A stretch of DNA of 44,273 nucleotides from Planctomycetota bacterium. GTDB lineage: Bacteria; Planctomycetota; Planctomycetia; Gemmatales; Gemmataceae. The first letter of the stretch is position 1; each line of letters begins with the position of its first letter. The notes below the pieces were generated by a model. That model made no database searches. It had not been told where the DNA came from and saw only the letters and a list, made by a program, of their open reading frames with translations. The translations under genes and the position numbers were made by a program. Below, piece by piece: positions 29,174 to 31,457 of the stretch. The DNA is taken from the NCBI GenBank assembly GCA_016872605.1, contig VGZI01000028.1, positions 1-44,273 of the forward strand. Reading direction: 5' to 3'.

Positions 29174-29497
29174 TTACTTCAGAACCTTGCCGCCGAAGCC
29201 TTCCTTCTCGAGTGCTGCGACGATGGCGGCTTCGTCGTAGCGTTCGGTCTCGGCGGTGAACGATGCTTGTTTCTTGTCGAAGTCAACCTTCACGTCCTTT
29301 GCCCACGGCAAAGTCGCTAGCGCTTCGCGCGCTCGCGGTGCGCATCCTTGCGCTCAGGACATTCCGGTGACTTCGACGAGCACCTGTTTAGTCTTGGATG
29401 CTGCTGGCACGTTACCGTCGGATGCCTTCTGTTGGCAGCCAACGATGAGAAACAGAATGGCGACGAACGAGGTCGAACCAAATAGACCACTTCGCAT
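29174..29497 (-). CDS. HMA-domain lipoprotein with in-frame TGA at a metal-binding Cys (selenoprotein candidate)
   Basis: Read through one TGA this is a 107-residue protein. It has a lipoprotein signal with lipobox IVGC (C21), a short linker, then a heavy-metal-associated (MerP/Atx1-like) domain: KQVLVEVTGMS-[TGA48]-AQGC52APRAREALATLPW...VKVDF...EKEGFGGKVLK. TGA stands exactly where the first Cys of the metal-binding loop is expected and the second Cys is kept. The frame stays open to a TAA at the correct domain end, with normal HMA sequence after the TGA. It lies in the efflux operon between the Cys-rich protein and the adaptor. A hairpin 17-39 bases after the TGA could act as SECIS. Alternatives are a TGC-to-TGA mutation or a base-call error. 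As a metal carrier feeding the pump it would be unusual if selenocysteine is used. Confidence 0.6.
29315..29337 (-). promoter_or_regulatory. SECIS-like hairpin after the in-frame TGA
   Basis: On the minus strand a 9-position stem with one G-A mismatch begins 17 bases after the TGA. It closes a five-base apical loop (GCGAA) whose first base, a G, is at +26. Bacterial SECIS elements need a stem-loop within roughly 15-40 bases with a G near the start of the loop, so the geometry is compatible. GC-rich DNA forms such hairpins often, so this is weak support on its own. Confidence 0.3.
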
Positions 29498-29628: not shown

Positions 29629-30135
29629 TCAAATGGTCAAGCGATGAAGAACGGTGACCAGGTCGGTAGGTGGTGGAATAGTGTCGAATCGCCAGGGAGT
29701 GGCGCTGTGAGCAGCATTGGCGTCGGGGGCGATGGCGACATCGACCCTCACCGCCGACGTGTCCTGGGTATTGCCATTCGGCTTGACTTCAACGCGGCAG
29801 AAAGAGCGATCTTCGGGCTTCACCAGAGTTCGCTGGCAATGGGTTTGCTCAATGGTTGGACCCGCGTCGGAGGCTTGTTTCGCCGTCGGAATTTCGGCGT
29901 TGTTGCAGCAGCTTCGTTTCGCTGGTTCTTTTGTCGCCTTGCAGCACGATTTCTTCCTTTTTTGGAAACCGTTCGGCGACGTGCAGCACGATGATGGAGC
30001 TGTGGACGCGAAGCCGTCGTTCTTGATCGAGCCGTCGGGGCATCGGCAAGCGTAATGCGGGCTGGCCGCCAGCAGCATCGACGCCGCCGTCGCCCACACC
30101 AAAGCCGCCATGGCTGTTCTGCGCAATAATCGCAT
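29629..30135 (-). CDS. exported Cys-rich protein, probable metal binding
   Basis: This 168-residue protein is the first gene of the efflux operon. A signal peptide is clear (residues 1-24, ending MLLAA). The mature part holds C30/C32 (ACRCPDG), then three adjacent-Cys pairs (SSCCTS, KSCCKAT, RSCCNNA), then two single Cys (THCQRT, SFCRVE) in a basic context. No known domain was recognised. Position and Cys content suggest periplasmic metal capture or sensing ahead of the pump; this is an inference. The C-terminal 50 residues lack Cys and look unstructured. The closest comparison is with the small Cys-rich proteins that often accompany Cus-type loci in planctomycetes. Confidence 0.65.
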   Translation of the reverse strand: MRLLRRTAMAALVWATAASMLLAASPHYACRCPDGSIKNDGFASTAPSSCCTSPNGFQKRKKSCCKATKEPAKRSCCNNAEIPTAKQASDAGPTIEQTHCQRTLVKPEDRSFCRVEVKPNGNTQDTSAVRVDVAIAPDANAAHSATPWRFDTIPPPTDLVTVLHRLTI

Positions 30136-30287
30136 GATGCACCACTTACATTGTGTGCGTGCGCCGCCTCGGCGTCAAGGCGAACTGTTCTACGAGGTGC
30201 GCCAGAAAAAGCTAAGATGCTCTATGTGAGCCGTGTCGCTCCATGTGCGCGCATCGGACATCCGATGATCGACGGGGAGGATCAAGA

Positions 30288-31457
30288 ATGAAATGGGGCG
30301 CTCCTTTGGTCTGCGGCCTCGTTTGGCTCGTTTGCACCGACGGCGCGGGCGAACGCGCGCTTGCTCAGGCAGGCAAGCCGGCCAAGCCGCGATTTGAACA
30401 TCTCCACGACATCCCGCACAAAGGCGAAGGCGTGCCAATGACGATGATCCGCGACGCCGCCGATCGGCCCTTTCTGTACGTCGTGGCCAGCGAAGCCGGG
30501 CTGCTGGTCTATGACATGAAGGCGGCGCCGCGGCTTGTGCGGACGATTCCCGCCTCGAAACTTGCGTCGCTGAACGTCATAAGCCTGTCGCAGGCTGGCA
30601 CGCGCCTCTACCTGGCGCTTGGAAACCATTGGGGCAAGCGCGGGAATGCGGGACTGGCAATCATCGATGTTGCCAAGCCGGCCGAGGCGAGCGTCACGGG
30701 GGTATGGAAGGACTCGGAACTCAACGGCGCGGGGGGGCGCGGTCGTTGTTGACGGGAATCCGCATATCTGGCGGCCATGGGCAACGGGCTTGTCGTGTTG
30801 GAAGTCGGCAATCCGGCGGCCATTCGCCCAAGCGCACGCCTCCTGCCCGAGCTCGCCTTCCCCGACGCACGGCCCGATCGCGGCAAGATCAACGCCCGCG
30901 GTCTGGCGCTGCGGAAGAACCTGCTCTTCCTTTGCTACGACGCCGGCGGCCTTCGCGTCATCGATGTCGGCAACCCGAAGAAGCCCACCGAGATCGGACG
31001 CTACTCCAACCCCGCCATGAACGGCAAGCCTCGCGCCTACAACAACATCGCCCTCAACGGCAATCTGGCCTACGTGACCGCTGATTACGTGGGTCTGGAG
31101 GTTCTCGACATCTCCAATCCGCGCGCGATCAAGCTCGTTTCGTGGTGGAACCCGTGGAACCCGAAGCTCGACGGGCTGCGCTGGTTCACGAGCCCTGGGC
31201 ACGCCAACGAGATCGTGTACGATGCGCGGAGCAAGACGGTGTTAATGTCGGCGGGCCGCAGCGACCTGGTCGCCGTTAATGTGTCTGATCCGGCCAAGCC
31301 GCGCCAGGTTGGCAGCATCGGCGACGTGGACGATACCAAAGCGACCTGGGGCCTATCGATGCACGGCGACCTGATTTACCTTTCGTACATACGAACCCTG
31401 GGCATCCCGTTTCGTGCCGATTGGCCGGGCGTAAAGGTGTTTCGCTATCGTCCGTGA
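30288..31457 (+). pseudogene. LVIVD-repeat exported protein with two compensating frameshifts
   Basis: Starting at ATG 30288 (GGGGAGG upstream), with a signal peptide ending near 'ALAQAG'. LVIVD-type repeats follow: GLLVYDMK, GLAIIDVAKPAEAS, GLVVLEVGNPAAIR, GLRVIDVGNPKKPTEI, GLEVLDISNPRAIK and LVAVNVSDPAKPRQV, forming a beta-propeller of about 390 residues. Frame is lost at a run of seven Gs (30731-30737, one G too many) and regained near 30762, where one base is missing. The short middle stretch 'AVVVDGNPH' reads in another frame. The two lesions restore the original frame. The compensation and the homopolymer make sequencing error as likely as true decay. Secreted LVIVD proteins have no known enzymatic role. 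Confidence 0.7.

Follow-up and report, generated by a model that had tools for sequence, protein, structure and literature searches.

A predicted selenocysteine at the first metal ligand of a putative HMA-domain lipoprotein encoded beside CusB and CusA in a planctomycete

An HMA gene with an in-frame TGA in a Cus-type cluster

The stretch of DNA analyzed here (the window, 44,273 nucleotides of a Gemmataceae genome) carries on its minus strand a row of four genes, encoding a Cys-rich predicted secreted protein, a small HMA-domain protein, a CusB-like membrane fusion protein and a CusA-like RND pump (Table 1). Homologues of CusA and CusB are thus found together in one cluster, by which we class it as a Cus-type efflux locus. 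The sequence-only reading from which we started had placed the HMA gene between the Cys-rich and CusB-like genes, had held that it encodes one HMA protein, normal on either side of an in-frame TGA and ending in TAA, if that TGA is decoded, and had located the TGA at the first ligand of the metal-binding loop. The gene positions, the 107-residue translation and the Pfam score given below bear out all of these points. With regard to the pump genes, the CusB-like protein has at its end a tail with Cys residues (KYCPIL...YVCCAGC), which resembles an additional metal-binding module, and the CusA-like protein is long, with its ACR_tran match divided over separate stretches, which suggests a large insertion.

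Table 1. Positions in the window of the predicted selenoprotein gene, its putative ligand codons and hairpins, and the neighboring genes.
Feature	Positions	Strand	Remarks
CusA-like RND pump, 1454 aa	22823..27187	minus	ACR_tran 657 bits, 3 stretches
CusB-like membrane fusion protein, 626 aa	27256..29136	minus	HlyD_D23 193 bits
Predicted HMA-domain lipoprotein selenoprotein gene, 107 residues	29174..29497	minus	ATG 29497-29495, TAA 29176-29174
HP2, 7 bp, loop GUG	29297..29313	minus	Over codons T-L-P-W-A-K; 47 nt from TGA to loop
HP1, candidate SECIS stem-loop	29315..29337	minus	Loop GCGAA, 25 nt from TGA to loop, -12.5 kcal/mol
TGC codon, Cys52, putative second metal ligand	29342..29344	minus	TGA there in 22/59 homologue rows
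In-frame TGA, predicted Sec48, putative first metal ligand of GMS-U-AQG-C	29354..29356	minus	Homologue alignment
Cys-rich predicted secreted protein, 168 aa, next gene upstream	29629..30135	minus	No Pfam match

The start codon of the HMA gene is preceded by GGAG 10-13 nt 5' of the ATG, and translation of the plus strand over the same positions gives an unrelated frame only. When the TGA is read as U, the translation runs ...VTGMS-U-AQGC-APRAREALATLPWAK... with an intact HMA domain, and with C substituted for U the protein scores 39.5 bits against Pfam HMA (PF00403, gathering cut-off 24.8). The predicted fold likewise places it in this family: the model has the order beta-alpha-beta-beta-alpha-beta (mean pLDDT 73.7, pTM 0.55, the N-terminal third being of low confidence), and its best match in the PDB, as found by Foldseek, is MerP (1osd, E 2.7e-6), the next matches being for the most part domains of copper and zinc chaperones and ATPases. 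At the N-terminus, a signal peptide was judged by eye to be present, together with the sequence LIVGC, which we take to be a lipobox.

For the part of the gene that follows the TGA, we compared the window gene and two relatives from the same genus with one another. The three pairs gave dS values of 0.66-1.19 and dN values of 0.17-0.31, and hence dN/dS ratios of 0.18-0.34. Since dN is low relative to dS, the part downstream of the TGA behaves as translated sequence, and the comparison indicates that it is under purifying selection.

Selenocysteine machinery and homologues

A search of the genome for selA, selB, selC and selD had been proposed as a check on decoding of the TGA as selenocysteine (Sec), and all four are present. 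In this genome, a 6.7 Mb draft in 372 contigs that is 92.8% complete, profile searches found SelA at 580 bits (cut-off 268), SelB at 368 bits (cut-off 242), SelD at 346 bits (cut-off 125) and a tRNA-Sec at 72.9 bits, which ARAGORN also calls as tRNA-SeC with anticodon tca. The SelD gene (L090, G000:C92:3351-4280) has an in-frame TGA of its own in the motif SCAGU-AGKL and served as a positive control; strong hairpins lie 3' of this TGA, and SelD is itself a predicted selenoprotein. Elsewhere in the window, TGA serves as an ordinary stop, for example in the ORFs of CusB and the Cys-rich protein. Sec machinery is recorded for some planctomycetes in the available part of PMC4807772.

Of 397 genomes of the class that we searched for homologues, 115 have a match, and 47 matches, from 41 genomes, contain an internal TGA. 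We aligned these 47 together with 12 matches that lack one, Cys controls picked by hand and mostly among the higher-scoring. Within the aligned matched stretches, all 69 in-frame TGAs of the 59 rows fall in the ligand columns: the first holds TGA in 47 rows and Cys in the other 12, the second TGA in 22 rows and Cys in the remainder, and the other 121 columns contain none. No TGA was seen in the lipobox Cys column, where 34 rows have C. In other words, the TGA aligns with Cys or TGA inside a protein that is conserved on both sides, as is asked of a bacterial selenoprotein. The loops found in this way are of the types UxxxC (the window), UxxxU, UxxC, UxxU, CxxxC and CxxC. All ten of the best non-self matches have TGA at the first-ligand codon, so that the comparison of homologues at this site, also suggested in the sequence-only reading, shows close relatives with TGA rather than TGC. 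Because the same TGA is common to relatives, a sequencing error is very unlikely.

The presence of the TGA also tracks that of the machinery. SelA or tRNA-Sec was found in 40 of the 41 genomes with a TGA homologue, versus 37 of the 74 with other homologues only (Fisher p 2e-8, these being species counts and not independent events) and 213 of all 397 genomes. Before counting, 11 weak SelA matches had been excluded, some of which may exceed the family cut-off; tRNA-Sec is likewise without a match in 10 of the genomes concerned, and counting the two weak matches of the non-TGA group gives 39/74 (p 1e-7). The single TGA genome in which neither SelA nor tRNA-Sec was found (G157) is 88% complete.

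The window's genome contains a second predicted HMA selenoprotein gene (L050, G000:C13:2402-2665), with a UxxxU loop (GMSUPGGUPPR); both an HP1-like stem and HP2 are present in it, and no efflux genes were recognized by eye in the surrounding 6 kb. In another genome of the class (G327, L053, G327:C383), a Cys-type HMA copy directly follows a TGA-type copy, and both precede CusB and CusA. Outside the class, TGA occurs at HMA ligand positions in at least seven genomes (L172, L173, L175-L179), after leaving out two of nine rows (G569 and G558), in which the TGA is terminal only. A wider scan of contigs gave eight loci, four of them in planctomycete assemblies already counted (G330, G274, G137, G101) and four in Bacteroidota, and a tblastn search of 72,556 plasmid records gave no match at 1e-5, which speaks against carriage on plasmids.

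Two hairpins downstream of the TGA

The stem-loop that had been noticed 17 nt after the TGA, with a G opening its loop at +26, is present (HP1). According to the available part of PMC13188914, a bacterial SECIS has a loop of 3-9 nt with a G in its first two positions and an upper stem of 4-16 bp, lies 16-37 nt from the TGA, and folds at -7.5 kcal/mol or below. HP1 proved compatible with this description, as had been proposed, having a 5-nt loop that begins with G, the spacing given in Table 1, and the energy given there when one internal mismatch is included; its unbroken 5-bp stem by itself reaches -7.4 kcal/mol, just short of the limit in a strict scan, and its loop GCGAA has G in first position, yet not the commoner G[G/U]. 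In the window gene taken singly, HP1 does not go beyond chance, as the 67-nt fold of the hairpin region has a z of -1.62 and 24% of synonymous shuffles do equally well in the strict SECIS scan, and its significance therefore rests on the homologues. Among these, 24 of 47 TGA genes pass the strict scan (4.2 expected from synonymous shuffles), as does 1 of 12 Cys genes (0.7 expected). The mean z of the folding energy of the whole region, -0.86 for TGA genes and -0.95 for Cys genes, does not separate the two groups.

Within the class, the second hairpin (HP2) is better conserved than HP1. At least 6 of its 7 pairs can form in 38 of 47 TGA genes, where 4.2 are expected and at most 10 were seen in 300 shuffle trials. 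It is found in 1 of the 12 Cys controls, in 2 of 3 further Cys genes and in none of another six, two of which were anchored on the wrong Cys pair. HP2 makes use of rare codons, with GTA at its Val codon in 34 of 47 TGA genes versus 23 of 479 Val codons in the pool. Across the 30 UxxxX genes, its covariation score is 0.259 versus 0.141 when shuffled (reached by 0/500 shuffles), and at most 0.107 when the pairing is slid along; pairs changed on both sides number 9 versus 6.9 when shuffled, a value that 54 of 500 shuffles reach, and the shuffles in both cases ignore relatedness. In the window's clade, a change that we read as GTA to GCA (Val to Ala) is accompanied by one from TTA to TTG (Leu), so that the pairing of HP2 was kept despite the change of amino acid. 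The window gene and its two genus relatives have the same 17 nt at HP2, with agreement at 22-33 of 53 third positions elsewhere. The idea that the hairpins are conserved in TGA genes thus stands on the shuffle and pair counts and on RNAalifold for the 10 nearest genes, for which the core of HP1 and HP2 are predicted; it did not stand in RNAalifold for all 30 UxxxX genes, for which no common structure was predicted.

We also considered the two hairpins together as a general SECIS of the genome and rejected this: a covariance model, with which 150 of 3106 first-look candidates were scored, matched only the two HMA genes (69-71 bits), both of which were in its training set, and the next match had an E of 0.17. 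Among the genes from outside the class, two (L173 and L175) have a loop GGUCC or GGUCU at the place of HP1. A Cys-type HMA gene with a CGAGC loop (L174, G569:C27) has a strong hairpin with a GGUCU loop at the same place, possibly the relic of a lost Sec codon.

As to which hairpin serves which UGA, the loop of HP1 lies within range of the first UGA; that of HP2, at 47 nt, is beyond the 16-37 nt of the SECIS model for the first, and the only ligand codon within its range is the second (35 nt). Among the TGA genes of the class that we read, HP2 is found in all 27 double-Sec ones (22 + 5) versus 18 of 28 single-Sec ones (16/25 + 2/3), a contrast with a Fisher p of 7e-4 that is not corrected for relatedness; the tree, with 74 columns kept and 4 starred of 70 inner branches, is too weak for a test on independent pairs. 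Outside the class, HP2 was seen in none of the seven TGA genes among the matches listed, three of which are double-Sec. This speaks against a general pairing of HP2 with the second Sec and marks HP2 as a feature at the level of the class, and the idea of one hairpin per UGA is unproven. Since HP2 has been kept in the window gene, which has no second TGA, either it still matters there or the second Sec was lost only recently. A wider reading that we put forward tentatively is that a family of Sec metallochaperones spread over the class takes the place of CusF in planctomycete Cus pumps, descending from a UxxxU ancestor and including the UxxxC form of the window, with tandem SECIS elements of which HP1 would serve the first UGA and HP2 the second, HP2 being retained in single-Sec descendants.

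Proposed carrier role, alternatives and known systems

The order Cys-rich gene, Sec-type HMA gene, CusB and CusA is found again in four other genomes (G101, G137, G274, G327), and a fifth (G330) has the last three genes of the row on a contig that ends there; CusB and CusA thus lie 3' of the TGA gene in five other genomes, four of which have the Cys-rich gene 5' of it. A search for CusF (PF11604) gave no match at E 0.001 in the window's genome, where a gap is possible given its completeness; the E. coli control was positive. We propose that UGA codon 48 would be read as Sec by the cell's own SelA, SelB, SelD and tRNA-Sec, directed by the stem-loop just 3' of it, HP1, probably with the help of HP2. 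The product would be a periplasm-facing lipoprotein, in which a soft metal, with Cu(I) or Ag(I) as the likeliest and Hg(II) as a further possibility, may be bound between the Sec48 selenolate and the Cys52 thiolate and then passed to the neighboring CusB/CusA pump, in the place that CusF takes in E. coli. Compared with a thiolate, a selenolate is expected to have the higher affinity for soft metals and to remain deprotonated down to a lower pH. The predicted fold and the neighbor genes suggest that delivery of a soft metal to CusB is the role of the protein.

Decoding of codon 48 as Sec is, on the sequence evidence, very likely. If the TGA were instead a sequencing error or a true nonsense mutation, the gene would be a pseudogene or encode a 47-residue fragment. 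The genome is indeed a draft in many contigs, TGA is ordinarily a stop and ends several ORFs of the window, and another ORF of the window (30243-31457) looks broken: it is interrupted by a TGA (30750-30752) shortly after seven consecutive Gs and seems locally out of frame, which makes a lesion more likely than Sec at that place. Against a lesion in the HMA gene stand the recurrence of the same TGA in 41 of 397 genomes at ligand columns only, the purifying selection after it, and the Sec machinery of the genome, and we regard this explanation as extremely improbable. Reassignment or readthrough of the TGA as another residue, such as Trp, or Cys by way of a near-cognate tRNA, would likewise keep the frame open; reassigned TGA is known in other lineages, and Sec at residue 48 is itself a prediction. 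Here, however, TGA still terminates ORFs, the ligand columns contain TGA or Cys codons and nothing else, and the TGA goes together with SelA and tRNA-Sec, so that this possibility is also very improbable.

A further alternative accepts the selenoprotein and disputes the carrier: the protein could be a thiol/selenol redox protein or a metal-stress reductase, in which the UxxxC motif might form a selenenylsulfide, and uncharacterized selenoproteins are mostly probably redox proteins (PMC13188914, section 7, in the part available). The HMA domain with MerP as the nearest solved fold, the position of the gene ahead of CusB and CusA in six genomes including the window's own, and the 22 of 59 rows in which not one but both ligands are Sec argue against a redox role, which we consider unlikely. 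The account as a whole, with Sec48 decoded and a soft-metal carrier handing its metal to CusB/CusA, is in our view probable, if clearly less secure than the decoding itself.

Should this account be correct, selenium appears here to act as ligand to a metal within a carrier, a use that recurs and involves both ligand positions, and seems to have taken over the usual role of sulfur in gripping metal in an environmental phylum. Automatic annotation presumably truncates these planctomycete genes at the TGA. The system could be used to test why a cell pays for Sec in a metal-binding site, and the tandem hairpins offer a case for testing the spacing of bacterial SECIS elements.

A redox function is assumed for most selenoproteins, and selenium in contact with metal is known from the active sites of enzymes, namely formate dehydrogenase and NiFeSe hydrogenase (PMC13188914, in the part available). 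Table 1 of this 2026 review lists, as HMA-type or related selenoproteins of metal transport, NF041115 (UxxU, entered as 'Metal-binding protein (putative mercuric reductase)'), a cation ATPase (UxxC) and MerT (C/SxxU), and has no HMA entry with UxxxC or UxxxU. We recognized no published account of the UxxxC/UxxxU variant in the literature covered, which includes little from subscription journals, and the term HMA was not found in the available part of PMC12013277. NF041115 is the best NCBIfam match of the window protein, and shares with it a small HMA-type domain with Sec in the metal motif; however, at 37.9 bits the window protein falls far below the cut-off of 95 and has UxxxC, not UxxU, and among 392 genomes of the phylum no match exceeds the NF041115 cut-off. 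The fusion-like MerT/CopZ selenoprotein NF045683 is by name a Sec heavy-metal transporter, and its C-terminal part matches the HMA domain of the window protein, but its profile spans 235 positions including a MerT part, whereas the window protein is a predicted lipoprotein with an HMA domain alone (24.2 versus a cut-off of 375). A selenoprotein named 'Mercuric transport protein MerP' was predicted from two metagenome sequences of the Global Ocean Sampling survey (PMC2398784, in the part available), and is alike in being a MerP-type periplasmic carrier with predicted Sec, MerP being also the closest PDB match to the model of the window protein; against the MerP family (TIGR02052), however, the window protein scores 25.7, with a cut-off of 92.55. 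In the E. coli CusCBAF system, CusF is the periplasmic metallochaperone of the CusB/CusA pump (PMC6235853, in the part available), and we propose the same place in the pathway for the window protein, although CusF belongs to another family (PF11604). HMA selenoproteins as a kind have thus been predicted before.
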